In this document: one piece after another, positions 42,407-61,718 of the stretch
Position numbering within the stretch: the stretch's first letter is position 1
How the letters are laid out: every line of letters begins with the position of its first letter
Assembly (NCBI GenBank): GCA_029557915.1
Contig: JAKQHS010000019.1
Span: forward strand, 62,001-126,000
Direction: 5' to 3'
Origin: Bacteroidota bacterium
GTDB lineage: Bacteria; Bacteroidota; Bacteroidia; Chitinophagales; Saprospiraceae
DNA: 64,000 nucleotides
The notes under the pieces: generated by a model
Seen by the model: only the letters and a program-made list of their open reading frames with translations
Databases searched by the model: none
Told to the model about the DNA's origin: nothing
Position numbers and translations under genes: made by a program

Positions 42407-42523
42407 GACCTGATAAAATTAAGTCGTTTGGGAAAATGGTTCAAGGGAAATTAGAAGGTTGCATGATTAGGATGAAATTTAACATCTCCGCGAATCACGC
42501 AACAGGACACCGACCTTATCCTC

Positions 42524-42557
42524 AAAAAAAAAGCCCCGAATCAGAAGGATCGAGGCT
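42524..42557 (-). terminator. Terminator of the tRNA-Val gene (chromosomal side)
   Basis: On the minus strand AGCCTCG (42557-42551) pairs with CGGGGCT (42538-42532), followed by a run of nine T. It directly follows the tRNA-Val 3' end and so marks the original chromosome side of the integration site. Confidence 0.85.
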
Positions 42558-42605
42558 TCAGTGGGAGTTGACGGGATCGAACCGCCGACCCTCTGCTTGT
42601 AAGGC
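42558..42605. repeat. att direct repeat, left copy (tRNA-Val 3' end)
   Basis: 48 bp identical to 55680-55727. On the minus strand this is the 3' part of a tRNA-Val(TAC): anticodon loop CTTACAA, T-arm with TTCGATC and acceptor strand AACTCCC plus discriminator A at 42562. The 5' half is missing; beyond 42608 the sequence is unrelated. It is the chromosome-element 1 junction. Confidence 0.9.
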
Positions 42606-42721
42606 AGAATTTTTGCATTTTTGATCTTCAGTATTTTATCTCGGTTTCCTTACTGCCACGCTGGAAGTGCCTAATTTTACAGTATCTCCAGGCTTTTGAT
42701 ATTTATTGAATATCTATCGAC

Positions 42722-42774
42722 TTTTTGGCAAATTTTTTGGCAAATCGTCAAGAAGCTCCGTAATTTGCCAAAAA
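42722..42774. repeat. Arm-type integrase sites, left end of element 1
   Basis: Direct repeats TTTTTGGCAAA at 42722-42732 and 42734-42744 and an inverted copy at 42764-42774. Two near copies lie at the other end (55616-55637). They overlap the region just before the integrase start, as expected for autoregulated phage-type integrases. Confidence 0.7.
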
Positions 42775-42786
42775 AGCATAAAGGAC

Positions 42787-44049
42787 ATGAACGAATCCCG
42801 GCCGAAGGTCTACCTTACTTTAGACAGGAGGAGGCCAAAAAATGACGGTACATTTCCCGTTAAACTTTATATCTACGATCCAGCTACAACCCGATCAAAA
42901 CGGTATTCTACAACCCTTTCCTTTGCCCCAGAAGAGTTTAAAAGTATTTGGCAGACTACCAGGCCCAGGGCGACCTACCTCGCCATCAGGGAGGATCTGA
43001 GGGCCATTATTTCAAAAGCCGAAAAAGACCTGGAAGGAATTCACCCATTCAGTTTTGAAGCCTATGAGGCAAAATTATTCAGGCCATCAGCGGAGGGGCA
43101 AAACGCATTGTGGCACTACGACGAACGCATCCGGAGCCTGAAAGAGCTAAAACAAATAGGCACCGCATCCTGGTATAAATGTTCAAAAAAATCCCTGCAA
43201 CAGTTCCTGGAGCATCAGAAGGACCGGAATATCGACAGGTTGAACTTTGACAAGATCACGCCTAAATGGCTGCGGCAATACGACTTTTTCATGCAAGAGT
43301 CCGGCAAATCAAAAACCACGATTGCCATGTATCTAAGGGCCCTCCGCGCTGTCTTCGTTGACGCGATCAAGTCGGGATATATTGACCGATCCCAGCATCC
43401 TTTCGGGGAGGGGAAATACGAACTGAAAGAGGGGGGGAGGGTTAAAAAGGCGCTTTCAAGGGAGGAACTGAAACTGTTATACATCAGCGAACCCGCCAAC
43501 CCGGAACAGCAAAAGGCAAAAGACTTTTGGTTTTTCTCCTACCTCTGCAATGGAATGAATGTAAAGGATATTATCAATTTCCGATATGGACAGATCGGCA
43601 AAGACAGTTTTGTATTTGAAAGAATCAAGACCAAGAACACCAACAGGCAGAGCCAGCCGATCCAGGTATTTCTTAATGAACACGTCCGGTATGTAATTCA
43701 GGAATACGGCAACCAGTCAACCGGCCGTCCCAATCAACTGGTTTTCCCTATTCTTTCGGATACTGACAGCGCGGAGCGGCAACACATGAAGACCCAGGCA
43801 TTCACCCGGTTCATCAACCAGCACATCAAAAAACTGGCAATGGCCAACGGGATCACCGGAGAGATAAGCACCTATTTTGCCCGGCACAGTTTCGCCACCG
43901 GATTAATCCGCAACGGCAAACCCATTGCATTTGTTCAGGAGGCCCTGGGCCATGCCTCCAGCAAGACCACCCAAAACTATATCGCCGGTTTTCTCAATGA
44001 TGAAAAGAAGGAAGCGGCCGAAGCCACTTACCAGGATTTGATTTCTTAA
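42787..44049 (+). CDS. int: Tyrosine recombinase/integrase of element 1
   Basis: 420 residues from ATG 42787; the frame is open 27 codons further up, but that part only translates the arm-type repeats. N-terminal arm-binding domain (about 5-85), SAM-like core-binding domain (110-215), catalytic domain (225-410). Catalytic residues visible: Arg366 (in FARHSFAT), His389 (GHA), Tyr398 (QNYIAG). The position of the first Arg reads NGMN (255-258), so it is missing as in IntDOT-type recombinases, and the His three before Arg366 is Tyr. It integrates the element into tRNA-Val. Confidence 0.92.
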   Translation: MNESRPKVYLTLDRRRPKNDGTFPVKLYIYDPATTRSKRYSTTLSFAPEEFKSIWQTTRPRATYLAIREDLRAIISKAEKDLEGIHPFSFEAYEAKLFRPSAEGQNALWHYDERIRSLKELKQIGTASWYKCSKKSLQQFLEHQKDRNIDRLNFDKITPKWLRQYDFFMQESGKSKTTIAMYLRALRAVFVDAIKSGYIDRSQHPFGEGKYELKEGGRVKKALSREELKLLYISEPANPEQQKAKDFWFFSYLCNGMNVKDIINFRYGQIGKDSFVFERIKTKNTNRQSQPIQVFLNEHVRYVIQEYGNQSTGRPNQLVFPILSDTDSAERQHMKTQAFTRFINQHIKKLAMANGITGEISTYFARHSFATGLIRNGKPIAFVQEALGHASSKTTQNYIAGFLNDEKKEAAEATYQDLIS

Positions 44050-44072
44050 CTTTAGGGGAAAGCATAAAGTAC

Positions 44073-44957
44073 ATGGAAACCGACAAGAAGGCAAGGCTAA
44101 TATTTGAAATACCTAAAGTAGATGGTTACTTTGTCAACCCAAATTTTTTCAAAAGCAATGAGCTAATTAAAACCAACATAAACAGGCCAACAGTAGAAGA
44201 AGCCCATTGGACAGTAATTCATAATGGCAAAAAATATAAGGTCTTTGTAGCCGAACTGTATGCAATTCTTAGTGAAATGGCTATTCCATTACCGGACGGA
44301 AACACATTCAATGGAAGAAAATTTATTAAAGACTATGCAACTGGATTTAATAAGGGGACAGATTATTTTAATTCTGAATTTGCTTTAAAAATAGACACCC
44401 TCTATAGTAGTGGATCATCCGGATATGTGGATAATTTGAAATCTTGTTATTTTAAAAAGGCACCTGATATTCAACATGGATGGATTTACTGGGCAAGTAC
44501 ATATCCTTTGATTATTAATCCAACAGTAATTGAGGAATACGGATTTTACGCTGGCATCATTAATGCTGTGAATAGCCTAAGGATTAAGCATCAGACATTA
44601 TTTAAAGATTTTGAATCCAATGAATCAAAGTCGAATATTAAGGAAGGCCCAAAACCACGGGGAAAAGCATTTGCAATACACTATGTATTGGCCTACATTT
44701 ATGATTGCATAGTGACCGGAGTTGCTTTACCAGTAGCAAGCGAAAAGAAAAGGTTGGAGCAAATATGCGCTGACAGGGAAATAGACCTTGCCGGGGATAC
44801 ATTTTATAGAAAATACAGAGAAGCAAGACGCATCGACTTAAATTCTAAAAAAGCCCTCACAAAAAAAGCGGGGAAGAATTGGGGAGAAATGGTAATATAT
44901 CTTTCTAAAAATCCCGATGAAGTATATAAACACTTGAAAGACAAGAAGCTGGTATAG
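44073..44957 (+). CDS. Hypothetical protein of element 1
   Basis: 294 residues, soluble. I do not recognise it. The C-terminal third (from about 200, KAFAIHYVLAYIYDCIV...) is helical and ends with a conserved-looking stretch around YRKYREARRIDLNSKKALTK that resembles a DNA-binding helical domain, but this is only an impression. It lies 23 bp after the integrase and upstream of the HTH/replication genes, a position often used by regulators in satellites. It is more AT-rich than the integrase gene. Confidence 0.65.
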   Translation: METDKKARLIFEIPKVDGYFVNPNFFKSNELIKTNINRPTVEEAHWTVIHNGKKYKVFVAELYAILSEMAIPLPDGNTFNGRKFIKDYATGFNKGTDYFNSEFALKIDTLYSSGSSGYVDNLKSCYFKKAPDIQHGWIYWASTYPLIINPTVIEEYGFYAGIINAVNSLRIKHQTLFKDFESNESKSNIKEGPKPRGKAFAIHYVLAYIYDCIVTGVALPVASEKKRLEQICADREIDLAGDTFYRKYREARRIDLNSKKALTKKAGKNWGEMVIYLSKNPDEVYKHLKDKKLV

Positions 44958-45022
44958 GGGCAAAAAAAGGACAAAATCCCCAAAATTCCCCGCGTAGGAT
45001 TGTTACATAAATTTTTAAAATT

Positions 45023-45376
45023 ATGTCTACAATTCTAAGCCCAAACGTCATTCTAAGCACAATCGATCCAGACTATCTGATCGAAACAATTTCTACCCGC
45101 GTCACGGAAAAACTTTCTCTATACCTTCCAGCGACGGCAAATGATCGACAAACCGATCCCAAAAAGCCACTCCGGCACTCTGCGGCCGCATCCTATCTTG
45201 GAATAGCCACTCAAACGTTGTACCAGTACATCAGCGAGGGCAAGATCAAGCCGCACAAACCCGGCAAGCACAATTTATTCTATAAGGATGATCTCGATGC
45301 GTTCATTCGAGGAGAGCAGCCGGTACAACCAGACGGAAGCCAATTTTTGAAACGCAATAAAAAAGCCCGGATATGA
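45023..45376 (+). CDS. Helix-turn-helix (excisionase-like) protein
   Basis: 117 residues. Residues about 50-95 form a MerR/excisionase-type winged HTH: SAAASYLGIATQTLYQYISE followed by GKIKPHKPGKHNLFYKDDLDAFI. Such proteins direct excision or regulate early genes. The stop overlaps the start of the ATPase gene by 4 bp (ATGA), so the two are translated together. Confidence 0.82.
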   Translation: MSTILSPNVILSTIDPDYLIETISTRVTEKLSLYLPATANDRQTDPKKPLRHSAAASYLGIATQTLYQYISEGKIKPHKPGKHNLFYKDDLDAFIRGEQPVQPDGSQFLKRNKKARI

Positions 45377-46500
45377 GTCATTACCCAGATTCCGAGCTGC
45401 ATAAAGAACTCCCGCAAGATAACGGAATTCCGGGAAATCCTGAAGCGCGCAAGGCCGAAGCAGCCCGACTTCAAGCGGGCATCGCCACTCTGGAAAATGA
45501 GTATAAATCTAAGCATCCTGAGACGACCGAACCGCCGCGAATCGAAAAACACATCGGGCTATTTACGATCAACACCGCATCCGGATGGGTGACTGAAGCA
45601 ATGAACCGATCGGTCCCTGGAATGCTGTTTGACACATTTTGGTATGAGGGTGAATTATGCATTTTATATGCAACTACTGGAGTTGGTAAATCTGTCCTTG
45701 CTGTCCAAATTGCAGACTCAATAAGTCGAGGGCTTGCGATCCCAGGATTTGAACTTGGAGTTACCGAGCAGCCTGTATTGTATATAGATTACGAACTCTC
45801 AGATATACAATTCGCCAAGAGATACGTAAATGCGGCAACCGGGAGCAAATACGATTTCAGCCCTAATCTATATCGATTAGAAATAAACCCAGAAGCAGAC
45901 ATCGCATCCGGGTTTCTCGAAATGGAATTCATGAATTCCATTAAGCAGGCTGTAACGCAAACCAATGCAAAAATTGTGATTGTCGACAACCTTACCTATT
46001 TGAAATCCGGGACGGAAAAGGCAGCCGAAGCCCTGCCATTAATGAAGACGCTAAACTCTTTAAAGAAAAAACTTAAACTATCAATCCTTTGCCTCGCCCA
46101 CACGCCAAAACGCGATAAATCGAGACCGATCACCGAAAATGATTTACAAGGATCCAAGATGCTATCCAATCATTGCGATTGTTTATTTGCGATAGGTGAA
46201 AGTTCTCGCGACTCGGGGATGAGATATTTAAAACAGATCAAAACCAGAAACACAGAGAAGGTTTACGACTGGGATAACGTGGTACTCTGCACTCTTGAGA
46301 AACCGGACAATTTTTTGGGCTTTCGATTCTTGGATTATGGAACAGAGGGCGAACATCTCCGGGTAGAAATGGATGCCGACAGGGATGAGCTGAAGCAAAA
46401 AATTAAGAAAATGGCTGAGCTGAAAATGACCCAGCGTGATATTAGCAAGGAGTTGGGTATCAGTTTGGGCAAGGTGAATAAAATGCTAAAACCCGACTAA
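45373..46500 (+). CDS. RepA-like AAA ATPase (replication helicase)
   Basis: 375 residues. RecA-fold core with Walker A YATTGVGKSVLAVQ (P-loop residues 100-107), Walker B near KIVIVDNLTYL, and LCLAHTPKRD, as in the hexameric RepA/AAA_25 helicases of plasmids, phages and satellites. The C-terminus (about 345-375) carries a small HTH (TQRDISKELGISLGKVNKML) that may contact DNA. Immediately downstream lies a dyad of 9-bp-spaced GTTCA/TGAAC repeats, so an autonomous replication module is likely. Confidence 0.88.
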   Translation: MSHYPDSELHKELPQDNGIPGNPEARKAEAARLQAGIATLENEYKSKHPETTEPPRIEKHIGLFTINTASGWVTEAMNRSVPGMLFDTFWYEGELCILYATTGVGKSVLAVQIADSISRGLAIPGFELGVTEQPVLYIDYELSDIQFAKRYVNAATGSKYDFSPNLYRLEINPEADIASGFLEMEFMNSIKQAVTQTNAKIVIVDNLTYLKSGTEKAAEALPLMKTLNSLKKKLKLSILCLAHTPKRDKSRPITENDLQGSKMLSNHCDCLFAIGESSRDSGMRYLKQIKTRNTEKVYDWDNVVLCTLEKPDNFLGFRFLDYGTEGEHLRVEMDADRDELKQKIKKMAELKMTQRDISKELGISLGKVNKMLKPD

Positions 46501-46509
46501 AATATTCCT

Positions 46510-46560
46510 GTTCACGCTGTTCACGCTGTTCATGCCATGAACAAAATGAACAAAATGAAC
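46510..46560. repeat. Iteron-like dyad (3 x GTTCA, 3 x TGAAC, 9-bp period)
   Basis: GTTCA starts at 46510, 46519 and 46528; the inverted TGAAC starts at 46538, 46547 and 46556. The two innermost form the perfect 7-1-7 palindrome GTTCATG-C-CATGAAC. It is placed right after the RepA-like gene: a candidate replication origin or operator; it may also act as a terminator hairpin. Confidence 0.8.
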
Positions 46561-46567
46561 ACACACT

Positions 46568-47089
46568 ATGAAAATCCACCTTCCTTCACTTCCGCGCGTT
46601 GAGTATCCACCAGGTTTTAAGGAAATCTGGCAGAAATACCGGGAGCGGGCAGAACAGATGCCACCGCACATATTTACCGGACAACCTCCGGCTGGTCCCC
46701 TCCGGCCGGAGAACTCCGGGATTCCTGAACCAGAACCCGAAACCACACCCACCATCACCGACTTGGAACGCCTCCGACGTACCCAGGCGATCATTAACAA
46801 GGGCATCGAAGACCGGATCATGCAGGCCGAAGTTGACCAGGACAGCCTGTCACCCCCCCTCCCCTGTATTGACGACTGGCAGGACATGGAGCGGTATTTC
46901 ACATCCGCAACCATCCCACCCGAACCGTTCAGAATTGGCTGCGTTACCGTGAATGACCCAATTGAAGCCATCCGATACCATCTTTCAGGCTTAAAGGCAG
47001 CACCACCAGAAAGCCTGGTAGCTAAAGCGGACGTTTACCATCTTAGGGTAATAAAAGCTGCCCTGGAAGCCCTGGAACCGCCTCCATAG
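46568..47089 (+). CDS. Hypothetical protein of element 1
   Basis: 173 residues. A Pro-rich, probably disordered first half (e.g. PEPEPETTPTITD) is followed by a compact C-terminal part (about 95-170) with DDWQDMERYF, then a strand and helices (DPIEAIRYHLSGL, YHLRVIKAALEAL). This part recalls small domains found beside Bacteroidota phage genes, but I cannot name the family with confidence. It lies between the iteron dyad and the terminase gene. Confidence 0.6.
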   Translation: MKIHLPSLPRVEYPPGFKEIWQKYRERAEQMPPHIFTGQPPAGPLRPENSGIPEPEPETTPTITDLERLRRTQAIINKGIEDRIMQAEVDQDSLSPPLPCIDDWQDMERYFTSATIPPEPFRIGCVTVNDPIEAIRYHLSGLKAAPPESLVAKADVYHLRVIKAALEALEPPP

Positions 47090-47160
47090 GGGGAGGGGCC
47101 ATTCATTCCTTGGATGAACCGTCCCCGAAGAGCACGCTTGGGATCGTACACGTGCGCTGT

Positions 47161-47174
47161 CAAGTTTAAACTTG
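47161..47174. promoter_or_regulatory. Palindrome upstream of the small terminase gene
   Basis: CAAGTTTAAACTTG is a perfect 14-bp palindrome 27 nt before the terminase start, followed by an AT-rich stretch. It is a candidate operator for late satellite genes. Confidence 0.4.
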
Positions 47175-47201
47175 TAATTTTATCATTTAAAAGCACACTC
47201 A

Positions 47202-47666
47202 ATGCGAACTACAAAACCCGTGCCCGCGAAACTGAAAGTTTTAAGGGGCACATACCGCAAAGACCGGGACGGAAAAGGATTAAAAGTACCACCCGGCCAG
47301 GAGATCCCGGAACCACCCGACCGCTTTAATAAGGATCAGAAAGCCCTCTGGCAGACCGTTTGCACCACCTTAAGGTCCGTGGATTTGTTGCAGCCGGTCG
47401 GAATCCCGCTGTTAATTATTTATTGCGACCAATCTAGGCTATACCAGGAAGCCTTTGACGAAGTAAAGAGAAGTGGAATGATCACAACCACAGTAACCAA
47501 ATATGGAACGGTCATGAAAAAAAATCCGGCTCTGGAGGTGATGAATGGAGCTATTAAGATCATGCTCGCAATTTCCGACCAATTCGGTTTTACCCCATTG
47601 GCACAAAGCAAGATCAAGGGGGTGGCCAGGCAGGAACAGGAGTATAATGATGGTTATGATTTTTAA
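47202..47666 (+). CDS. P27-family phage terminase small subunit
   Basis: 154 residues. The start KPVPAKLKVLRGTYRKDR, the EIPEPPDRFNKDQKALW block, LLQPVGIPLLIIYC, the KKNPAL stretch and the final FGFTPLAQSKIKG follow the P27 (Terminase_4) pattern along the whole length. Small terminases recognise packaging sites; in phage satellites such as SaPIs the satellite's own TerS redirects helper packaging. No large terminase, portal or capsid gene follows, which favours a satellite over a prophage. Confidence 0.88.
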   Translation: MRTTKPVPAKLKVLRGTYRKDRDGKGLKVPPGQEIPEPPDRFNKDQKALWQTVCTTLRSVDLLQPVGIPLLIIYCDQSRLYQEAFDEVKRSGMITTTVTKYGTVMKKNPALEVMNGAIKIMLAISDQFGFTPLAQSKIKGVARQEQEYNDGYDF

Positions 47667-47744
47667 ATTGGCCGATTTTAGTCCAAAACTATCCCCCAGC
47701 CAGTTGCAAATTTTTCTTATGCTTTATTTTCAATATGGAGCTAA

Positions 47745-47987
47745 AGATTTGACCTTGCCGACTATTTAATAAAGTTCAATTACAAGGATTTTGCCTTACC
47801 TAAACTCGAAGCTACCGAACCAACCCCAGCCGTTCAAGCATGGGTTGAGGAGAAAGTGTTGGAGCAGCTCGAACCCGTTTACTATTTCAATAAGCCCGAA
47901 CAGTCAAAGCCTGAAAGCTGGGAACAGGATATTGCCCGTAAAGCTGAACCCATACAGCACGGTAACAAATGTTTCTCTATTCATTGA
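47745..47987 (+). pseudogene. Coding-like fragment without start
   Basis: An open frame of 80 codons (DYLIKFNYKDFALPKLEATE, then EEKVLEQLEPVYYFNKPEQS and SWEQDIARK) has natural codon usage and composition but no start codon, with a stop just upstream. It is probably the remnant of a gene cut by a rearrangement. No family recognised. Confidence 0.35.
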
Positions 47988-47989
47988 AA

Positions 47990-48427
47990 GCCAAAATAAA
48001 TTTAAGATACCAAAGCCGAACTCTTTCCCGACCTTGTATGATGACCTAAAAACTGTCAGCATTTCTTGTTACAGCCCCTTCCAATTTAGGTAAAGGGGTT
48101 GTTTGGTATTTCGTATGCCCTTATACTGGTAAGCGTTGCCGAAAGTTATATTTAGCCAACACCTATTTTTATCACCGTTCAGCGTTCAGGGGCTGTATGT
48201 ACGAAAAGCAAACACAAAGTAAAAAGTATAGAGATTTAGATAAAACGCTGGGTGTATATTTCCGGACCGACAAACTTTTTGAACAACTTTACAAAAAGCA
48301 GTTTAAAAAACAGTATGCGGGCAAGGCTACAAAAAAGTATTTGAAACTTATGCAGCAAATACAAAAAGCCCAAAGCATAAGTTACAAAGAACTTGAAAGA
48401 GCATTGATATGCTCTTCTGGGAGGTAG
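47990..48427 (+). pseudogene. Frameshifted hypothetical gene (zinc-ribbon-like)
   Basis: The last part (48050-48427) reads FLVTAPSNLGKGVVWYFVCP, then TGKRCRKLYL, GCMYEKQTQSKKYRDLD and a Lys-rich helical tail. This resembles a hypothetical family common in Bacteroidota with paired cysteines (CPYTGKRC). There is no start codon before 48197. The missing N-terminal part (FKIPKPNSFPTLYDDLKTVS) is found just upstream in another frame, so one frameshift near 48060 split the gene. Confidence 0.5.
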
Positions 48428-48535
48428 AAAGTAATTTTTAATATATTCGTGTATGTAAAAATCTTAAAATTAAGAACCTTTGACTTACCAAAGGCTTTAA
48501 ATGCAACAGTTGCTTACATTTAACAAATTGTATCG

Positions 48536-48623
48536 AAAATGCTAGGACACCGGGAAGATTTATGCCAAAATAATTGACCAGCGCAAACGGGAAACCTCCG
48601 AAAAAATTGAATTAGAGCTATGA
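48536..48623 (+). pseudogene. Relic of a tyrosine integrase C-terminus
   Basis: KMLGHR (frame starting near 48535) and, in another frame, KIYAKIIDQRKRETSEKIEL up to a TGA at 48621-48623 are the box III GH motif and the catalytic-Tyr region of XerC/D-like recombinases, with the segment between them deleted. The TGA overlaps the ATG of the ISP enzyme, so the two genes were once coupled. Confidence 0.55.
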
Positions 48624-51600
48624 CTTTCGGCAAAGTATTAGACAAATACCGCAAATATTCCTTTTCAGAACAAGACAAAGGAGAAAGGTTTGAGCGCTTA
48701 ATGAAAGCCTACCTGCTTACAGACCCCAAATATGCCTATAAATTCAAAAAGGTTTGGCTATGGAGTGAGTTTCCCGGAAAGGTTGATTTGGGAGGCTGGG
48801 ACACCGGCATTGACTTAGTAGCCCTGACCATTGAGGGCGACTATTGGGCTATACAATGTAAATGTTATTCAGAGAGCGCTATAATTGGCAAACCGGAGGT
48901 AGATTCATTCCTGGCCACCAGCAGCCGCAAGTTCAAAGGGGAGGATTTGAAAACAACAGGTTTTGCCCACCGCCTTTGGATTTCCACCACAAACAACTGG
49001 GGGACGAACGCTCAGGAGGCCATAAAGAACCAGCACCCCCCGGTATCAAGAATTAACCTCTTTGATCTGACCAGCGCCCCGGTTGATTGGGAAAAATTGG
49101 AGGCCAATATAAGCGGGGAAGATGCCCGATCCACCCGTAAAAGTTTGAGGCCGCACCAAATCTTAGCCCTCACGAAAACGCACGAACACTTTAAAACCCG
49201 TGCCAGGGGCAAATTAATAATGGCTTGCGGAACAGGCAAAACATTCAACAGCCTCCGCATAGCCGAACACGAAACCAACGGGAATGGCTTTATATTATTT
49301 TTAGTGCCCTCTATTTCTTTATTAGGACAGACGTTAAACGAATGGAGCGCCGATGCCTTAGAGCCTATTAATGCTATATGTATTTGCAGCGACCCGGAAG
49401 TATCAAAAAAGCGAACGCAATTAGAGGATATTGATACTTCCTCCGTAATTGACTTAGCCTATCCCGCCTCCACCAATGTAAAAGACATACTGCACCAATT
49501 CCAATATTTAGATAAGAAACGCAATAAAGGCTTAACGGTAGTTTTCAGCACTTACCAAAGTATTGAGGTAATTGCCAAAGCTCAAAAGCAATTACAAAAA
49601 GAGCAGCCGGAGTTTGGCGAATTTGATTTGATTATATGCGATGAAGCCCACCGTACCACGGGCGTATCATTGGCCGGGGAGGACGAAAGTGCATTTACCA
49701 AAGTACATAACAACGATTTTCTAAAGGCCCAAAAGCGCCTTTACATGACCGCCACCCCCCGCCTTTACGATGATAACAGCAAAAGCAAAGCAGCCCAGGC
49801 CGAAGCCATACTTTGCAGTATGGACGATGTGGAATTATACGGGGAAGAGATGTACCGTATAGGCTTTGGAGAGGCAGTAGAAAAAGACCTGCTAACCGAT
49901 TACAAAGTATTAATTCTTACCCTGAATGAGCACGATGTACCCCCAGCCGTACAAAAAATGATAGCCGATAAGGAAAGTGAAATAAATACGGACGATGCCT
50001 CCAAACTTATCGGCTGTATCAATGCCCTTTCTAAACAAGTATTGGGGGATGAGGGCATAATAAAGGAAACCGATCCCGAACCCATGCGCCGGGCGGTTGC
50101 CTTTTGCCAAAGTATAGCCGCCTCTAAAAAAATTACGGCCACATTTAACATTGCTACCGATAGTTATATAACGGAACTGCCCGCCGATAAGAAAGAGGAA
50201 ATGCAGCGGGTACAGTCACAGCATATTGACGGCACAATGGATGCCACTAAGCGTAATGAATTGTTATCTTGGCTAAAGGAAGAACCCAAAGAAAGAGAGT
50301 GTAGAGTACTGACTAATGTCCGTTGTTTAAGCGAGGGAGTGGATGTGCCCAGCTTAGATGCGGTTATGTTTTTGAGCGCCCGCAACAGCCAGGTTGACGT
50401 AGTGCAAAGTGTGGGGCGGGTCATGCGCAAAGCGCCCGACAAAAAATACGGCTACATAATTATTCCGGTAGTTGTTCCCTCCAATGTGGAGGCCGACAAA
50501 GCCCTGGACGATAACGAACGCTATCGGGTAGTATGGACAGTATTAAACGCCCTCCGTGCCCACGATGACCGCTTTAACGCCACCGTAAACAAAATTGAAT
50601 TGAACCGCAATAAGCCCAATAATATTTTAGTGGGCAGGCCGGAAATTACCTTTGACGAACACGGAAACCCAATATACGGCGACGATTACGATGAGAACAG
50701 CGTACAAAGCGCCAAAAACATATCGGAACAATTGGCCTTGCAATTTCAGGAACTGCAAAGCGTGGTATTTGCCCGTATGGTGGAAAAAGTTGGTGACCGG
50801 CGCTATTGGGAACAATGGGCAAAAAGTGTAGCGGAAATTGCCACCCGCCAAACCGCCCGGATTACCAAACTGATAAACGAAGATGCTAAACACCAAAAAG
50901 CGTTCGATACGTTTCTGAAAGGCTTACATAAAAATATAAACCCCAGCATATCCCAAACAGAGGCTATTGAAATGCTTAGCCAGCACATTATAACCAAACC
51001 CGTATTTGATGCCTTATTTGAGGGCTATTCGTTTGTTAAGAACAACCCAATGAGCCTTTCAATGCAAAAGATGCTGGACTTGCTGGAGGAACAGAGTTTG
51101 GAAAAAGATGCCGAAACCCTCCAAAAGTTTTACGATAGTGTAAAAACCCGTGCCAGCGGCATTGATAACGCAGAAGGTAAGCAGCGTATCATTAATGAAT
51201 TGTACGACAAGTTCTTTAAAACCGCTTTCCCTAAAATGGTGGAAAAGCTGGGCATAGTTTATACCCCGGTGGAGGTGGTGGACTTTATCGTACATAGTGT
51301 GGCCGATATATTGCAAAAGGAATTTGGCCGGAGCATAAGCGATGAAAATATACACATACTCGACCCATTTACAGGAACAGGGACATTCATTACCCGGCTG
51401 CTGCAAAGCGGAGTAATTGATAAAAAGGATTTAGCCCGGAAATACGCCAACGAAATACACGCCAACGAAATTGTACTGCTGGCCTATTATATAGCGGCGG
51501 TAAACATTGAAAATGCCTACCACGACTTATTGGCCGACTTACACAGCCCGGACGACAACAGCCAGGTTATTGCCCTTATTGAAAGCGACCTGTCAATGGC

Positions 51601-53548
51601 CGCCGAACCCCAAAGCCCATACGGAAACCAACAAGCCTACAAGTCATTTGAGGGTATTTGCCTGACAGATACATTTCAATTGGGGGAAACGACGGACGGG
51701 GAAAAGCTGTTTAGCGAAATGTTTCCACAAAACAGCAAGCGGGTACAAAGGCAAAAGAAAGCCCCACTCCGAGTTATTATGGGCAACCCGCCCTATTCCA
51801 TTGGGCAAAAAAGCGCCAATGATAATGCCCAAAACCAAGCCTATCCGATATTGGATGGACGTATTGCAAATACATACGCCAGGCTTTCCGATGCTGGCCT
51901 TAACAAATCCCTTTACGATGCCTATGTAAAAGCCTTTAGGTGGAGTACCGACCGTTTAGATAAAACCGGAGGTATTGTTTGTTTTGTAAGTAATGGGGCA
52001 TGGTTAGACGGCAATAGTACAGACGGATTCCGTAAAAGCATTGAAAAGGAATTTAGCTCCATTTATGTTTTCAATTTGAGGGGGAATGCCCGCACACAGG
52101 GCGAATTAAGAAGAAAAGAGGCAGGCAACGTATTTGGTGGAGGGTCACGAACGCCCATAGCTATAACCTTATTGGTTATAAACCCGGCGGTTAAGACCGA
52201 AAAAGCAACCATACATTACCACGATATTGGCGACTATTTAGACCGGGAAGAAAAGCTAAAAATCATTAAAGGCTTAAAATCATTTTCTAACCCGGCATTA
52301 CCATTACAACAACTGCACCCCAACGAACATGGCGACTGGATTAGTATGCGCAATAATATATTTGAAAGCTTCATTCCATTAGAGCCGGAAAAAAAGTTTG
52401 ATTTAAAAACAAAGTCAATTTTTAATACATATTCAAATGGGATGGTAACAAGTAGGGATGCTTGGCTATATAGTTTCTCTAAGAATATTTTGAGCACAGT
52501 TATATCACAAATGATAGACAACTATAATTTTGAACGAAAAAGAACAAATAAAATTGAAGAAATTAATATTGAATCAAACAAAATTAGCTGGTCGGTTAAT
52601 TTAAAAAACGACCTAAAAAACAATGTTAACCACAACTTTAATGAAAGAAATATAATAGATAGCCTTTATAGGCCATTCGTAAAAAACAAGATATACTTTG
52701 ACAGAAAGTTTATAGAAAGACCCGGTTTTAATGATAAGTTTTTTAGTTCAAAAGCAAAAAATTATGCTATTGGCATATCAGGCATCGGAGCAAGTAAAGA
52801 TTTTTCTGTTATTATCACAAATACCCCTTTCGATTTCCAAACCCTTATGAATGGTCTCATATTTCCTCTTTATTACTATGAAGAAAACACCTCCTCACAA
52901 AAGAGTTTGTTTGATAAAGGCGAAACGCAAGATTACGTTCGCAGAGATGGCATAAGCGATTTTATTTTAGAGCGGGCACAAAAGCAATACGGAAAAACCG
53001 TAACCAAGGAAGATTTATTTTACTATGTGTATGGCTTTTTGCACAGCCCCGAATACCGCCTAACCTTTGCCAATGACTTAAAGAAAATGCTCCCCCGCCT
53101 GCCTTTCGTGGAGGTGGTAAGGGACTTTTGGGCTTTCAGCAAGGCAGGTCGCCAATTAGCCGAACTGCATTTGAATTACGAGAGTGTAGCCCCCCACCCG
53201 GATGTAAAAGTAACCGGGGACAGAGGGAGCAACTACCATGTAGAGAAAATGTACTTCCCGAAAAAGGGCCAAACCAACATAATAAAATATAACAGTCAAA
53301 TTACCATTGAAAACATACCCTCCAAAGCGTATGAGTATGTAGTGAACGGGAAAAGTGCTATTGAATGGATAATGGAACGCTACCGAATAAACACCCATAA
53401 GGAAAGCGGAATTACCAACGACCCGAACGATTGGGCAAAAGAGCAGGGCAAACCCCGCTATATCCTGGACTTGCTGCTAAGCATTATAAACGTAAGCACC
53501 CAAACGGTTGACATTGTAAACAGATTGCCTAAACTGAAATTTGAGTAG
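48620..53548 (+). CDS. Type ISP restriction-modification enzyme (nuclease-helicase-methyltransferase)
   Basis: 1642 residues in one chain. N-terminal Mrr-like nuclease (GIDLVAL, then QCK: Asp65, Gln79, Lys81); superfamily 2 helicase/translocase with Walker A ACGTGKT (202-208), DEAH (341-344) and motif VI VQSVGRVMRK; a helical coupler (about 700-850); N6-adenine methyltransferase with DPFTGTGTF (915-923) and NPPY (1056-1059); a C-terminal target-recognition region (about 1250-1640). Order and size match the single-polypeptide type ISP enzymes LlaGI/LlaBIII. It needs no partner and would cut unmethylated phage DNA. Cargo of element 1. Confidence 0.9.
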   Translation: MTFGKVLDKYRKYSFSEQDKGERFERLMKAYLLTDPKYAYKFKKVWLWSEFPGKVDLGGWDTGIDLVALTIEGDYWAIQCKCYSESAIIGKPEVDSFLATSSRKFKGEDLKTTGFAHRLWISTTNNWGTNAQEAIKNQHPPVSRINLFDLTSAPVDWEKLEANISGEDARSTRKSLRPHQILALTKTHEHFKTRARGKLIMACGTGKTFNSLRIAEHETNGNGFILFLVPSISLLGQTLNEWSADALEPINAICICSDPEVSKKRTQLEDIDTSSVIDLAYPASTNVKDILHQFQYLDKKRNKGLTVVFSTYQSIEVIAKAQKQLQKEQPEFGEFDLIICDEAHRTTGVSLAGEDESAFTKVHNNDFLKAQKRLYMTATPRLYDDNSKSKAAQAEAILCSMDDVELYGEEMYRIGFGEAVEKDLLTDYKVLILTLNEHDVPPAVQKMIADKESEINTDDASKLIGCINALSKQVLGDEGIIKETDPEPMRRAVAFCQSIAASKKITATFNIATDSYITELPADKKEEMQRVQSQHIDGTMDATKRNELLSWLKEEPKERECRVLTNVRCLSEGVDVPSLDAVMFLSARNSQVDVVQSVGRVMRKAPDKKYGYIIIPVVVPSNVEADKALDDNERYRVVWTVLNALRAHDDRFNATVNKIELNRNKPNNILVGRPEITFDEHGNPIYGDDYDENSVQSAKNISEQLALQFQELQSVVFARMVEKVGDRRYWEQWAKSVAEIATRQTARITKLINEDAKHQKAFDTFLKGLHKNINPSISQTEAIEMLSQHIITKPVFDALFEGYSFVKNNPMSLSMQKMLDLLEEQSLEKDAETLQKFYDSVKTRASGIDNAEGKQRIINELYDKFFKTAFPKMVEKLGIVYTPVEVVDFIVHSVADILQKEFGRSISDENIHILDPFTGTGTFITRLLQSGVIDKKDLARKYANEIHANEIVLLAYYIAAVNIENAYHDLLADLHSPDDNSQVIALIESDLSMAAEPQSPYGNQQAYKSFEGICLTDTFQLGETTDGEKLFSEMFPQNSKRVQRQKKAPLRVIMGNPPYSIGQKSANDNAQNQAYPILDGRIANTYARLSDAGLNKSLYDAYVKAFRWSTDRLDKTGGIVCFVSNGAWLDGNSTDGFRKSIEKEFSSIYVFNLRGNARTQGELRRKEAGNVFGGGSRTPIAITLLVINPAVKTEKATIHYHDIGDYLDREEKLKIIKGLKSFSNPALPLQQLHPNEHGDWISMRNNIFESFIPLEPEKKFDLKTKSIFNTYSNGMVTSRDAWLYSFSKNILSTVISQMIDNYNFERKRTNKIEEINIESNKISWSVNLKNDLKNNVNHNFNERNIIDSLYRPFVKNKIYFDRKFIERPGFNDKFFSSKAKNYAIGISGIGASKDFSVIITNTPFDFQTLMNGLIFPLYYYEENTSSQKSLFDKGETQDYVRRDGISDFILERAQKQYGKTVTKEDLFYYVYGFLHSPEYRLTFANDLKKMLPRLPFVEVVRDFWAFSKAGRQLAELHLNYESVAPHPDVKVTGDRGSNYHVEKMYFPKKGQTNIIKYNSQITIENIPSKAYEYVVNGKSAIEWIMERYRINTHKESGITNDPNDWAKEQGKPRYILDLLLSIINVSTQTVDIVNRLPKLKFE

Positions 53549-53631
53549 GTGAATTTTTATCATCAAATAGGGAGTGTCAAATATTCTGATATTCTTATGA
53601 ACCAAGCAAAGAAATCTTTTGTTGTCCTCTA

Positions 53632-54186
53632 ATGGACTATTTTGATTACAAAGTGTCAATTTATTTTGACGATAGTGTTTACTATAATGGAAGTGAAGTA
53701 ATTTACCCTTTTAACGGAGCCTATTTGCTTGCGGTCAAGCATCGAATTAAGCCAACCGAAAATTATTCAACGAGTTGGGAACCAATGGATATTAATATAA
53801 AACCTATCCTTACTATTTCAAGAATTGGCTACAATTTTAGGGAAGATAAATTCAATGAAATAATAAAGACACTGGGTGAGTTTATACACTATCAGTGTTT
53901 CGTATCGGCTGAAATTGAACTTACTACTTTTAAAGGAGATACTTTTTTTGCGACATTTCAGCCTTCTTTATATCATGAATATGATGGCAAAATACCGTAT
54001 AAGGCTCTTTTGATTTCCACTTTTCATCATTCTGCTGAGTCAGAAATCCAATTTTACAAGGAAATATTAATTGATGGTTTAAAAGAGATTAAAGTAGATA
54101 TTTCAGATTATTTCGATAATCACTTTTTAATATCAAAAAAAGGAACTTCAATAGCTGAAGCTGAAATTGATCTGGACCAATTATAA
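53632..54186 (+). CDS. Hypothetical protein, first of a two-gene pair
   Basis: 184 residues, soluble and rich in aromatic residues (DYFDYKVSIYFDDSVYYNG, FATFQPSLYHEYDG), predicted mostly beta in the first two thirds with a helical C-terminus. No family recognised. It lies 83 bp after the ISP gene and 8 bp before the next gene, so it forms a pair with it. AT-rich, like its partner and unlike the chromosome. Confidence 0.7.
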   Translation: MDYFDYKVSIYFDDSVYYNGSEVIYPFNGAYLLAVKHRIKPTENYSTSWEPMDINIKPILTISRIGYNFREDKFNEIIKTLGEFIHYQCFVSAEIELTTFKGDTFFATFQPSLYHEYDGKIPYKALLISTFHHSAESEIQFYKEILIDGLKEIKVDISDYFDNHFLISKKGTSIAEAEIDLDQL

Positions 54187-54194
54187 ATAAAATC

Positions 54195-55337
54195 ATGGAA
54201 AATTCTGAATCGACTTTAATTGGTAATTGTGATTGTAAACTATGCTGTACAGGTAGTTTACCGGGAAAAGGGTCTCACATATTTTCTGACTTTTTAATTC
54301 GAGAAGTAGTATATAAGGATGGCAAAGCTGGGGTAGATAGAAATTTTGGAAATTCTTATGAATTGATGTTCTCTATTAAACCATTTCAAATGATGGATCT
54401 CTATTTTAGAGGTGGATCAACTCAAGAAGCTTTAGACTTTCTAAACAAAGAAAAATTCAGTGACGAAGAAGTTGCGGCGCTTCCAAAGACAGGTCCGTTA
54501 GTTGACTATGATTTAGTTTGTACGAATTGCGAAGATCTGTTCAATACCTTAGAAACAGAGTTTAACAAATTATATCTAAAAGTAATTAATTTTCCAAAGT
54601 CTTCAGACTTTTATCCATTGGATAATTATTCGCAGATTATCGTTAAGATATTTATTCTTCTAAATATTTGGAGAGCAGGAGCATCCGAAAAAATAAAATG
54701 GAATCCAAGTTCAACTTCAATGCAAGGCTTAACTCATTTACTATGGGTATTTTTAATAGATCAGAATATTTTATCGGATAGATCGAAACTTGTTGAAGCT
54801 TATACTGAGATTATAAATTCAAATTCTGACATTAAAGGCTTTCTAAATACGTTTCAAGTCATCACTTTCATTAATAATGACGAAATTGATCCTCAATATC
54901 ATTCAAAATCCAATTTCATATCATGTTATTATAGCACCGAACCTTATTGTATTATAATAAATCGCTTGTGCATACTATTTTCAGAAAGAAGGTTTGATGA
55001 CTCAGGTAATCCAAAGATATTTAAAAATTTATCCCCTATTTTAGATAAACTTGCTGATAGGGATATCAGAATATATCTGATGAGCACTGAGGATTTGAAA
55101 AAAATAAATTATAATGTTGTCAATGAACAAATAGACTTAACAATATCGTTAATTTCTGAGCTTTTTGATATAGCGTATAAAAAAATACACTTTGAACCTC
55201 CAGCCCCACATTTATTCGCCGGACTTTTCCCCTTTGTTTATCCTACTGTGATGGAAGGATTGAAACATGGCAATTTTTCTAACGTTGTGATTGAAAAGAT
55301 AATTCAATATGCAAATGAATCACATCCAAATCTTTAA
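54195..55337 (+). CDS. Hypothetical protein with CxxC...SH...CxxCE zinc-type motif
   Basis: 380 residues. The N-terminus has Cys14-x2-Cys17, then Ser27-His28, and Cys109-x2-Cys112-Glu. The layout CxLC...SHI...CxxCE occurs in uncharacterised proteins, often in mobile or defence regions, and resembles an HNH/treble-clef zinc site, but the nuclease residues are not complete enough to claim activity. The remaining 250 residues are helical, without a recognised domain. It follows the 184-residue gene by 8 bp and ends element 1's coding part. Confidence 0.7.
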   Translation: MENSESTLIGNCDCKLCCTGSLPGKGSHIFSDFLIREVVYKDGKAGVDRNFGNSYELMFSIKPFQMMDLYFRGGSTQEALDFLNKEKFSDEEVAALPKTGPLVDYDLVCTNCEDLFNTLETEFNKLYLKVINFPKSSDFYPLDNYSQIIVKIFILLNIWRAGASEKIKWNPSSTSMQGLTHLLWVFLIDQNILSDRSKLVEAYTEIINSNSDIKGFLNTFQVITFINNDEIDPQYHSKSNFISCYYSTEPYCIIINRLCILFSERRFDDSGNPKIFKNLSPILDKLADRDIRIYLMSTEDLKKINYNVVNEQIDLTISLISELFDIAYKKIHFEPPAPHLFAGLFPFVYPTVMEGLKHGNFSNVVIEKIIQYANESHPNL

Positions 55338-55615
55338 AAAAGTACTTTTCATTGGGTGATAGTTAGTATTTTTCGTTATTTTTTACATTTCAATTGGGTC
55401 GGGCACTCCTTTTTCTTTGGGTCGAGGATTAGGACAATAGATAGGTTTGTGTATCAAGTCGCTATGGTTGAAGAGGAACCAAAATTAGGATGAAATTTAA
55501 GATGGGGTCAAGATACCTCTTAGCTAACCCCATGGGTGAATTTTAAAAGTCTAAGCCTTCGGTTAAAATCCTTTAAGACAAAATCTTCTTTGGAAGTCAC
55601 CCCCCAAAGGGTCAC

Positions 55616-55637
55616 TTTTGGCAAATTTTTTGGTAAA
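55616..55637. repeat. Arm-type integrase sites, right end of element 1
   Basis: TTTTGGCAAA (55616-55625) and TTTTTGGTAAA (55627-55637) match the two direct repeats at 42722-42744 with the same spacing, so both ends carry binding sites for one integrase. Confidence 0.65.
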
Positions 55638-55641
55638 TAAA

Positions 55642-55674
55642 AAAGAGTTACACCAGAAACTGATATAACTCTTT
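55642..55674 (-). terminator. tRNA terminator carried by element 1
   Basis: A perfect 9-bp stem (55642-55650 with 55666-55674); on the minus strand it is followed by TTTTTTATTT. It lies directly behind the tRNA-Val 3' fragment, so the element brings its own terminator for the tRNA gene it restores. Confidence 0.75.
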
Positions 55675-55679
55675 GATAA

Positions 55680-55727
55680 TCAGTGGGAGTTGACGGGATC
55701 GAACCGCCGACCCTCTGCTTGTAAGGC
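55680..55727. repeat. att direct repeat, right copy (tRNA-Val 3' end)
   Basis: 48 bp identical to 42558-42605. The tRNA 3' end would be at 55684 (minus strand). The 5' half of the tRNA is again absent: beyond 55730 the sequence is element 2. It is the element 1-element 2 junction; the complete tRNA gene is expected to the right of the window. Confidence 0.9.
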
Positions 55728-55822
55728 GGAGGGCATAACTTATTCATTCTTGATCATTATTAATTATTACTCTGTATTTTAACTTGTTATATGCTATATC
55801 GATTATTATTCATTTGCTTTAA

Positions 55823-55862
55823 TGTTTGCAATTAGCTATTTTTGTTTGCAAATTGTTTGCAA
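55823..55862. repeat. Arm-type integrase sites of element 2
   Basis: TGTTTGCAA occurs at 55823-55831, 55843-55851 and 55854-55862, just before the integrase start. The last two are 11 bp apart, like the 12-bp-spaced sites of element 1, but the sequence differs. Confidence 0.65.
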
Positions 55863-55865
55863 CAA

Positions 55866-57107
55866 GTGAAAAGTATACCAAGGGCAGGTGTTTATCTGGA
55901 TACCAGGAGGAAATACCAAAATGGGAAGTATCCTGTTAAAATCAGAGTATCCTTTAGGAGAATAACTCATAATTATAAGACAGGAATTTCATTGACTGAG
56001 GATGCCTTCAAGAAGTCGTTTGAGGCAAAATCTCCACATGGTCAAGCCTATCTCATGAAAGAAGAGATTCAAGGACACCTAAAGAAAGCAGAAGTGATTA
56101 TTAAGGGGTTGAATACCTTCTCGTTTGGAGAATTTGAGAGAGCATTCTACGATGTTCGTCACGCTGATCAAGACCTCTTCAGTTTGTATGATCAAGTTAT
56201 AGAGGAAAATAAAGCCAAGGGAAGCTTTTCCAATTCAGAATTTTATAGACTATCAAAAGCTAAGCTAATCCATTATTTCGCTGGGAGCCAATCTGTCCCA
56301 TTTGATCGTATTGATTCAGGAGAACTGGCCAAGATTGATAAATGGCTAAGAAATAAAGGGTTAGGTAATACTTCCATTTCTATATATTTCAGGTGTTTAA
56401 AGCACATTTATTATATTGCTTTGAAAAAAGGTTTTATTGGCCAAAATCAGAATCCATTCAATTCCCAGGCCATTAATCCTTATCGCATACCATCGTCTCG
56501 AAATGTAAAAAGGCCGTTGAATGTAGAGCAGCTTAAAAGCTTGCTTGCTTACAATCCAATCTCTGGAAGCCCAAAAGAAGAAGCCAGAGATTTTTGGTTG
56601 TTGAGTTTATATTGTAATGGCATGAATATCAATGATTTACTTCAACTTAAAAACAATAGTTATAGAGATTCAAAGATCATCTTCACCAGGGGAAAAACAA
56701 TGTCTAAAACCAGTCATACATTAAAAATAAATGTTTCAGTAGTCCAACATGCCGCTCAATTGATCGAAAAATACAGGAATGAAGACCATTCCCCGGAAGC
56801 CTACTTGTTTCCTGTCCTGGAGGGTGTTTCAAATGATGAAGAACAAAGGAAAAGGATCAAAAACTTTACCAAGAAGATCAATCAACATATGAAAAAGATT
56901 GCTCAGGAAATTGGTTTACCTACAGGAATTTCAACCTATTGGGCAAGATATACTTTTACAAACCTGGCTAAAAACAGAGGAGCCAGTACAGAATTTATCC
57001 AGGAGTCCGTTGGACATACGTCCAAACGCACAACAGAAATTTACCTTGATTCATTTGAAGATAGCATTCGGGAGGAAACGACTTTGAAGATCTTCGAAGG
57101 ACTTTGA
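55866..57107 (+). CDS. int: Tyrosine recombinase/integrase of element 2
   Basis: 413 residues from GTG 55866; TTG codons upstream would read through the arm repeats, and the alignment-like start KSIPRAGVYLDTRRKYQNGK fits this position. Arm-binding, SAM-like and catalytic domains as in the element 1 integrase. Visible: Arg in YWARYTF, His in SVGHTSK, Tyr in EIYLDSF. The first Arg is again replaced (CNGMNINDL). The two integrases share this architecture but are clearly diverged, so element 2 is not a copy of element 1. Confidence 0.9.
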   Translation: MKSIPRAGVYLDTRRKYQNGKYPVKIRVSFRRITHNYKTGISLTEDAFKKSFEAKSPHGQAYLMKEEIQGHLKKAEVIIKGLNTFSFGEFERAFYDVRHADQDLFSLYDQVIEENKAKGSFSNSEFYRLSKAKLIHYFAGSQSVPFDRIDSGELAKIDKWLRNKGLGNTSISIYFRCLKHIYYIALKKGFIGQNQNPFNSQAINPYRIPSSRNVKRPLNVEQLKSLLAYNPISGSPKEEARDFWLLSLYCNGMNINDLLQLKNNSYRDSKIIFTRGKTMSKTSHTLKINVSVVQHAAQLIEKYRNEDHSPEAYLFPVLEGVSNDEEQRKRIKNFTKKINQHMKKIAQEIGLPTGISTYWARYTFTNLAKNRGASTEFIQESVGHTSKRTTEIYLDSFEDSIREETTLKIFEGL

Positions 57108-57220
57108 CAAAAAAACCCACTTCTGAACAACCCTCCCCTGAAACCGCCATAGAATCTTTTAGGGAAAGGCAGGATGCGGAGCAAAGGTTTCCCCTTATCA
57201 AGGCGGAAATCGTCGATTGA
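57104..57220 (+). CDS. Possible 38-residue protein coupled to the integrase
   Basis: A TTG overlapping the integrase stop (TTGA) opens a 38-codon frame with a charged, helix-like composition (ETAIESFRERQDAEQRF). It could be a recombination directionality factor or chance; no homology is visible. Confidence 0.22.
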   Translation: MTKKPTSEQPSPETAIESFRERQDAEQRFPLIKAEIVD

Positions 57221-57340
57221 AGGCAATTTTCAGGCTTTTAAGGCTATTACGGCTATTCTAAGGTAGATCATTTCCTTCAGATGAGATTTACCAATATATC
57301 TACGAACCGACTGCCTTTAAAATACCGTGCAATCATCCTT

Positions 57341-59398: not shown

Positions 59399-59600
59399 AA
59401 CTTTTATTTGTTTTATACAATCCTTCTTCTATCGTAGGCACCCGATGATCCATAATCCATTTTTCAATATCTTCAGAATGGAATAGGAGTCGATGCCCGC
59501 TTTTGATATAAGGAATCTTTCTTTCGGCAACCCATCTATATATTGTAGATGGGTGACATTGCATTAATGCTGCAACGGTTTTTAAATTAAAAATTTTCAT
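59379..59600 (-). CDS. AlpA/excisionase-like HTH protein
   Basis: 73 residues: an MerR-like winged HTH over most of its length (NLKTVAALMQCHPSTIYRWV, then ERKIPYIKSGHRLLFHSEDI). It overlaps the start of the replication gene by about 20 bp. Likely directs excision and early gene expression of element 2. Confidence 0.85.
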   Translation of the reverse strand: MKIFNLKTVAALMQCHPSTIYRWVAERKIPYIKSGHRLLFHSEDIEKWIMDHRVPTIEEGLYKTNKSYENERA

Positions 59601-59643
59601 TTTATTCTTATTTATACCCCAAATATATACAGTGACTTAGCTG

Positions 59644-59660
59644 GGAATTCCGGATTCCCA
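59644..59660. promoter_or_regulatory. Small palindrome upstream of the HTH gene
   Basis: GGGAAT-N5-ATTCCC, 44 bp before the HTH start; a candidate operator for autoregulation. Confidence 0.35.
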
Positions 59661-59718
59661 CCGATTCCTAGATCAGGTGTGATAAACAGTGATGAAAAAT
59701 ATTTACAATTAAGAATTC

Positions 59719-61708: not shown

Positions 61709-61718
61709 TTATTGCAAA

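Follow-up and report, generated by a model that had tools for sequence, protein, structure and literature searches.

The DNA analysed here, 64,000 nucleotides long and called the window below, belongs to contig JAKQHS010000019.1 (C143:62001-126000) in the draft genome of a Bacteroidota bacterium from the family Saprospiraceae (GCA_029557915.1; 5.04 Mb, 209 contigs). It contains one complete integrative element (A) and the left part of a second one (B), arranged in tandem in one tRNA-Val(TAC) gene. This array very probably results from tandem accretion of two independent integrative elements, a process that is in itself already known (PMC5704250). It is a clean, well-bounded case, with three copies of the attachment site (att), two distantly related integrases, and matched arm-type repeats for three elements, including one from a congener (genome G001). 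The parts of the array are listed below; positions called window-equivalent are counted on past the right end of the window.

42516-42562: terminator hairpin before att1 (-15.2 kcal/mol), taken as the tRNA's own
42558-42605, minus strand: att1, 3' end of tRNA-Val(TAC), left boundary of the array (repeat and genome search)
42606-55679, plus strand: element A, 13,122 bp from att to att, G+C 41.5%
42722-42745, plus strand: left arm-type repeats of A, TTTTTGGCAAAT twice, 12 bp apart
55615-55638, plus strand: right arm-type repeats of A, CTTTTGGCAAAT and TTTTTGGTAAAT, 12 bp apart
55636-55684, minus strand: terminator-like hairpin and T-run at the right end of A, for the rebuilt tRNA
55680-55727, minus strand: att2, second 3' end of tRNA-Val, junction of A and B
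55728-64000, plus strand: left part of element B, which continues to att3 (whole element 14,290 bp from att to att, G+C 34.0%)
55842-55864, plus strand: left arm-type repeats of B, TTGTTTGCAA twice, 11 bp apart (partners at window-equivalent 69902-69925)
69972-70017, window-equivalent: att3, in the intact tRNA-Val

An earlier note, made from the letters of the window, had claimed that the 3' end of tRNA-Val(TAC) occurs twice as a 48-bp repeat, 13.1 kb apart. The repeat is exact (48/48 bases for 42558-42605 and 55680-55727, with a mismatch right after), and att1 and att2 are spaced by 13,122 bp from start to start. On the minus strand it reads as the 3' half of the tRNA with anticodon TAC. The note had also held that neither copy has the 5' half of the tRNA, and that the intact gene and a third att copy lie to the right of the window. 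ARAGORN found 0 tRNAs within the 64 kb, which agrees with the first point. For the second, it located an intact tRNA-Val(TAC) at L004:16974-17049 (C143:131973-132048, window-equivalent 69973-70048), about 6 kb past the right end of the window. The third copy of the repeat lies inside this gene and agrees in 46/48 bases, the first two being different. A genome-wide search with the 42-mer core of the repeat (up to 3 mismatches) returned 3 copies, the third at C143:131974-132015, 2.5 kb short of the contig end; the backwards control returned 0. An intact tRNA-Val beside either window copy, or the lack of a downstream att copy, would have spoken against the tandem; both were checked, and neither occurred. 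Direct att repeats thus bound each element, and the complete target gene is present at one end only.

Three 85-bp tandem repeats lie directly 5' of the intact tRNA-Val (L004:17060-17314, window-equivalent 70059-70313). They begin as the 5' half of the tRNA, have the anticodon arm replaced, and each folds into one long hairpin (-31.8 to -35.2 kcal/mol). Allowing 1 mismatch, their arm motif is found at no other place in the genome.

Each element has its own arm-type repeats, which are putative binding sites. In A, the motif TTTGG(C/T)AAA is paired at 42724/42736 and again at 55617/55629. In B, GTTTGCAA is paired 11 bp apart at 55844/55855 and at window-equivalent 69904/69915. The element of the congener has pairs of TTTGCAAGC, 12 bp apart, at both ends. 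The repeats match within each of the three elements and differ in sequence between them. Because they pair by sequence, A and B lie side by side and are not nested. Directly outside the tRNA 3' end, the right end of each of the three elements has a hairpin together with a run of T on the tRNA strand (A -17.0, B -16.3, congener -17.6 kcal/mol), so that each integration seems to re-supply a terminator. The G+C content is 51.9% in window positions 1-42557, lower in A and B as listed, and 49.2% in the 2.5 kb to the right of the tRNA. A segmental duplication of the tRNA end, or a misassembly, is highly improbable as the source of the repeats. The draft state of the assembly, with its many contigs, would allow for it. 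The repeats are, however, just 48 bp long, the flanks of the three copies differ and come with matched arms and terminators, and in the congener a different element is built in the same way. We have discarded this explanation on the basis of the flanks, arms and terminators.

The genome contains two copies of the 17-mer ATTAGGATGAAATTTAA and no more (up to 1 mismatch), one to the left of att1 (42466-42482) and one near the right end of A (55484-55500). The two sites match in 19/20 bases and score 35; the best of 200 shuffles scored 27. They may be a relic of the right end of an older element.

The two integrases are encoded as follows:

42706-44049, plus strand: integrase A (IntA), 447 aa with the mechanical start; Phage_int_SAM_5 and Phage_integrase; box I GMN
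55842-57107, plus strand: integrase B (IntB), 421 aa with the mechanical start; Phage_int_SAM_5 and Phage_integrase; box I GMN

As the earlier note had stated, each att copy is followed by an integrase of its own, clearly different from the other and with its own arm repeats: the open reading frames (ORFs) begin 100-115 bp downstream of the repeats, and IntA and IntB share 29% identity. As the mechanical starts (TTG) run into the arm repeats, the true ones are probably slightly further in. An Arm-DNA-bind_5 domain scored 21.3 bits in IntA, below the cut-off of 22.6, and was not reported for IntB in the Pfam scan. A maximum-likelihood tree was computed for 44 rows (A, B and 42 distinct relatives). 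By title or tree label, all 13 integrase relatives that have names belong to Bacteroidota. IntA is sister to the integrase of the congener (support 100/100), and a split with support 100/98 sets IntB and five others apart from the other 38 rows, IntA among them. That one integrase serves two att pairs is unlikely, given the low identity and the well-supported split. A 3' fragment of tRNA-Val(TAC) lies upstream of 13 of the 44 integrases (A and B included) and a fragment of another tRNA upstream of a further 13, one label (L078) having been assigned by hand; the patterns used found none for the remaining 18. Use of tRNA-Val occurs in at least three parts of the tree, so that a recent Val-specific ancestor common to A and B is not required. 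At the site read as box I, the aligned rows have G-M/I/L-N, with N in 44/44 and no arginine.

The same tRNA end is occupied in other genomes. In the congener, the one other genome of the genus that was covered, the 42-mer is present twice, on separate contigs, each with part of an integrase gene at its end. The first copy lacks the 5' half of the tRNA and is followed by an integrase with 62% identity to IntA; the second is in an intact tRNA-Val. When the element of the congener was compared with A by phmmer, the integrase and the helix-turn-helix (HTH) protein matched and nothing else did, so that it is probably an independent insertion. The 42-mer was found within 3 mismatches in 67 of 396 genomes of the order. 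By our reading of the hits, 10 of these 67 have copies on the same strand of one contig, 0.6-29 kb apart; three copies at element spacing are seen only in the genome analysed here. In G397, a third copy is far off and on the opposite strand. Five of the other nine genomes were examined, and all five have an intact tRNA-Val. An integrase lies beside the other att in four of them (G454, G463, G397 and G231); the fifth, G358, was left out of the integrase check. Elements bounded by a tRNA-Val end and an intact tRNA-Val are present in these four genomes and in L066, L030 and L032. A separate observation concerns G314:C12:39065-39442, where three tRNA-Val 3' ends, 168 bp apart, are probably tandem tRNA genes and not elements.

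Each integrase type also occurs at tRNA-Val without the other. Relatives of A, though not the same element, stand alone there in L066, L030 and L032. Among B-like elements, both ends were seen once, in L115; the best match of its integrase is IntB. IntA-like integrases were found in 4 of 150 family genomes (1e-60) and 10 of 396 order genomes (1e-70), IntB-like ones in 5 of 150 (1e-60) and 28 of 396 (1e-50), the own genome being included each time. All these occurrence counts are lower bounds because tRNA ends diverge and contigs break.

The att copies, the arms, the divergence of the integrases and the G+C contents together bear out the central claim of the earlier note, that two separate integrative elements lie in tandem in one tRNA-Val gene. 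We propose that A and B were each inserted by an IntDOT-like tyrosine integrase of their own into one shared target, namely tRNA-Val(TAC) in its anticodon-loop/3' half. The right end of an element would bring a tRNA 3' half and a terminator, so that integration would rebuild the tRNA at the right while the old 3' half stays at the left. The second element would have reused the same tRNA-Val sequence, giving the order chromosome - att1 - A - att2 - B - att3 (intact tRNA-Val) - chromosome. The evidence points weakly, and in our view with fair probability, to A having come first and B later, at the intact tRNA. With three similar att sites, the anatomy would permit three circles (A, B and A+B).

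An alternative is that A and B arrived, or move, as one composite island of 27.4 kb, with IntB acting on the outer att sites and A as a passenger. The common core of att1 and att3 and the decay seen in A (see below) would fit this, and transfer of a whole composite is named as a possible scenario in passages of a review of integrative and mobilizable elements (IMEs) (PMC5704250). Against it, the ORF of IntA has no internal stop and A has its own matched arm repeats at both ends. A and B differ by 7.5 points in G+C, and each integrase type has relatives in tRNA-Val elsewhere without the other. We consider the composite island improbable. Some points nevertheless weigh against the accretion of two independent elements. 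A single transfer of a ready-made A+B pair could have produced the same array. The left flank is taken as chromosomal from context (its 1109-aa neighbour reads as SecA by eye) and from the terminator before att1. The congener has other left neighbours, and no orthologous empty site was found there. Excision of any kind is predicted from the anatomy of A and B, and so are the joint or nested excision and the exchange of cargo that the earlier note had raised.

The boundaries and gene contents of the elements were read directly. Besides IntA, element A encodes:

44073-44957, plus strand: 294-aa protein, no family
45023-45376, plus strand: HTH_17 protein, excisionase/AlpA-like
45373-46500, plus strand: AAA_25/DnaB_C helicase-like replication protein
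46568-47089, plus strand: 173-aa DUF6965 remnant, truncated
47202-47666, plus strand: small terminase subunit (TerS), P27 family (TIGR01558, PF05119, phrog_83)
48007-48409, plus strand: broken backbone gene, two parts in different frames
48620-53548, plus strand: type ISP restriction-modification enzyme, 1642 aa (Mrr_cat_2, ResIII, Helicase_C, ISP_coupler, Type_ISP_C)
53632-54186, plus strand: 184-aa protein, no family
54195-55337, plus strand: 380-aa protein, no family

From its genes, A looks satellite-like or de-mobilized, with an integrase, an excisionase, a helicase, a lone TerS and restriction cargo. The TerS scores 68 bits against TIGR01558, the NCBI curated P27 model (cut-off 45.6). 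No mobilization protein was found in A, and relatives of its helicase occur in viral contigs with circle-like ends. Among 10 proteins of A, Pfam and PHROGs gave no match to a relaxase, capsid, portal or large terminase. A is partly decayed, as judged by its sequence. The 173-aa protein is only the C-terminal DUF6965 part of a Zn-ribbon/DUF6371/DUF6965 protein found in relatives. The two parts of the broken gene correspond to a 195-aa protein that viral contig L130 has in intact form (identities of 83% over 115 aa and of 65% over 20 aa). With the Zn-ribbon/DUF6371 part lost and the 195-aa gene in two pieces, A may no longer replicate alone. The TerS looks whole, in contrast to these decayed genes. 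For the type ISP enzyme, N6_Mtase is weak (21.4 bits against a cut-off of 20.4). This enzyme and the repeat-ended protein of B (L004:9062-12211) both start with Mrr_cat_2 and a DEAD helicase and are matched by the same two PADLOC restriction models.

The helicase was used to collect relatives of this module. At 1e-40, relatives turned up in 15 of the 298 order genomes searched, with the own one counted, and 26 viral contigs have one as well. L066, which is 6.7 kb long and has both att sites at the same tRNA-Val, shows the order integrase, 294-like gene, HTH gene, helicase, Zn-ribbon/DUF6371/DUF6965 gene and small genes. In L066, as in viral contig L132, a homologue of the 294-aa protein lies between the integrase and HTH genes. 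Of nine small viral contigs with the helicase, five (L125, L127, L130, L131 and L132) have exact terminal repeats of 96-127 bp, a feature of circular assemblies. In L128, the end sequences are found again close to the other end but do not form an exact terminal repeat, and L124, L126 and L134 have no terminal repeat. L132 encodes a prohead protease, an HK97-type capsid protein and Terminase_2; L128 encodes Terminase_2. Fifty selected ORFs (at least 70 aa) from six small viral contigs were scanned with Pfam and PHROGs (25 of 27 Pfam families and 25 of 81 PHROGs listed); Pfam gave one capsid, one protease and two TerS. Small proteins after the primase-like gene in relatives (107 aa and similar) had been taken by eye for small terminases; they are not counted as such because Pfam and PHROGs give no support. 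L132 itself (IMG/VR 3300012942_000311; 8,791 bases, 123-bp terminal repeat) also has integrase, excisionase-like, helicase and DUF6371-type genes, and no portal, large terminase or tail is among its listed scan matches. It is a candidate for a capsid-bearing satellite.

Outside A there are 34 helicase loci, some of them one place counted twice (L025/L057) and many short. TerS (two queries) was found in three of them (L059, itself a query, L128 and L132), and a mobilization protein (one query) in one, L135, alongside the module. In L059, the TerS follows the DUF6371 gene; its contig ends right after the TerS, so that L059 may be a prophage. Among 50,697 phage records, the helicase of A matches two, both faecal "Bacteriophage sp."; among 72,556 plasmid records it matches eight, from Bacteroides (6), Butyricimonas and Phocaeicola. 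The module also occurs in the 10-kb circular Bacteroides fragilis record CP103138.1, with a mobilization protein, an integrase and an excisionase. This record (L149) and CP103131.1 (L150) were deposited as plasmids and carry cfxA. The gene set of L149 (integrase, excisionase, AAA, DUF6371, mobilization protein) is that of an excised mobilizable element. Since the module occurs in viral contigs and in a mobilizable circle, this chassis seems to serve both transfer styles.

Two readings of A are each possible, and we hold neither to be probable. In one, A is a satellite akin to the phage-inducible chromosomal islands (PICIs), whose P27 TerS would redirect the packaging of a helper phage to A DNA. 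The integrase at one end, the HTH_17/AlpA-like regulator, the replication helicase, the lone TerS and the restriction cargo fit this, as does the lack of a structural gene among the scanned proteins of A. TerS also occurs in helicase viral contigs L128 and L132 and in L059, and the majority of the small helicase contigs end as circles would. Several points weigh against a working satellite. The replication genes of A are partly lost (truncated DUF6371 protein, broken backbone gene). TerL_ATPase (PF03354), the sole large-terminase (TerL) family searched, had no match in the own genome (control 3/14 genomes). The TerS of A is present in 1 of 150 family genomes, namely its own, and scans of viral contigs with IntA, the TerS of A and the primase of B gave no relative. 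L059 may be a prophage. The helicase-DUF6371-excisionase module is not specific to satellites, because the Bacteroides circle has it together with a mobilization gene. A search of solved structures by sequence with the TerS of A returned designed proteins only and was uninformative.

In the other reading, A is a conjugatively mobilizable element of the Bacteroides type which has lost its relaxase, the TerS being an inherited passenger. The order integrase-excisionase-AAA is colinear with that of circular CP103138, the AAA proteins being 42% identical over 313 aa and the excisionases 43% over 56 aa, and L135 has a mobilization protein with the module. Against this, the mobilization protein of CP103138 matches nothing in A or B (E<=1) and, as a single query, was found in 1 of 34 helicase loci; the whole TerS amid decayed genes is a further objection. 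No relaxase family was reported for the 20 proteins of A and B in the Pfam scans, and a conjugative element was rejected as a candidate for A or B since these scans gave no relaxase or mobilization protein.

It is tempting to speculate beyond this, although we consider the following doubtful. A may belong to a little-described group of Bacteroidota satellites built on a mobilizable-transposon chassis (integrase-excisionase-AAA-DUF6371), with a TerS in place of the mobilization gene (P27 in A; Terminase_2 in L128 and in L132, seemingly an 8.7-kb circle with its own HK97-type capsid and protease). The tRNA-Val(TAC) gene would serve these satellites and VapE-primase elements as a common insertion site, at which they would accumulate, carrying restriction systems against rival phages. 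If this is true, conjugative mobilization was swapped for phage packaging while the excision and replication genes were kept. We infer that A may be packaged by a phage and that the cargo may have a defence role; that A spread inside phage particles is a guess.

Besides IntB, the following genes of element B begin within the window:

57341-59398, minus strand: primase-helicase, Prim-Pol, PriCT_2 and VapE-like, 685 aa
59379-59600, minus strand: HTH_17 protein, excisionase/AlpA-like, 73 aa
59719-60810, minus strand: 363-aa protein, no family
61392-61589, plus strand: N-terminal fragment of HsdM, 65 aa (Pfam 23.8 bits, under the cut-off of 24.5)
62061-64000, on to window-equivalent 65210, plus strand: protein with Mrr_cat_2, ResIII/DEAD, Helicase_C and repeats (INT_rpt), 1049 aa

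DUF805 and tetratricopeptide repeat (TPR) proteins are also encoded (Pfam). B looks like a Prim-Pol/VapE element, judging from these domains. Its 10 proteins (Pfam; three also PHROGs) gave no match to a relaxase, capsid, portal or large terminase. There is no clear TerS, only weak HTH matches: the 73-aa protein matches small-terminase PHROGs (3.7e-4 and 0.022), ranked below excisionase families, and we read these matches as due to the shared HTH. The 363-aa protein had been taken for RteC-like at first impression, an identity that no family match backs. Elsewhere in the window, a short array of AACCTCAGCCTT-type repeats with a spacing of 12-18 bases is found at 31967-32050.

The integrases of A and B resemble the IntCTnDOT subgroup as described in passages of PMC8138268, where the box I arginine is weakly conserved and absent from part of the subgroup: they have SAM_5 and catalytic domains and arm-type sites, and lack this arginine. 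They differ in targeting the anticodon loop of tRNA-Val and in their box I, which reads G-M/I/L-N across the aligned rows.

The circle CP103138.1, with its cfxA gene, is presumably of the Tn4555 kind, a name that the record does not give. A shares with this Bacteroides mobilizable transposon the order integrase - one gene - excisionase - AAA ATPase. Unlike the circle, A has no mobilization protein, and its DUF6371 protein is reduced to the DUF6965 remnant with the P27 TerS next to it. The gene between integrase and excisionase is not detectably related (the 294-aa protein had no significant match to the gene at the equivalent place in CP103138, annotated as a transposase).

Compared with PICIs, as characterized in passages of PMC6092414, A has the left-end integrase, the AlpA-like regulator, a replication gene, a TerS and accessory cargo; its replication protein is a different one. 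By modules, A has int, HTH_17 and an AAA_25 helicase with the primase-like part lost, and B has int, HTH_17 and Prim-Pol/VapE. The text of PMC6092414 contains no word starting with "Bacteroid". Phage-inducible chromosomal minimalist islands (PICMIs) are covered in passages of PMC10803314. The A-type group is not described in the available passages of PMC12946183 and PMC12324425, nor in the titles and abstract beginnings of the listed open-licence papers on satellites and Bacteroidetes/Bacteroidota.

Accretion at one att site is known for integrative and conjugative elements (ICEs), IMEs and prophages, as passages of PMC5704250 review; cases with ICESt1 and cis-mobilizable elements (CIMEs) are among its references. 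The array agrees with these accounts in its common att repeats, in the intact target at one end only and in distantly related integrases of similar specificity; the incoming element probably uses the att site of the resident. It differs from the accretions in those passages in that A and B target tRNA-Val(TAC), that no relaxase was recognised in either, and that one of them has a small terminase. To these accounts the array adds its matched arms and terminators and, on an IME chassis, a TerS that stands alone.

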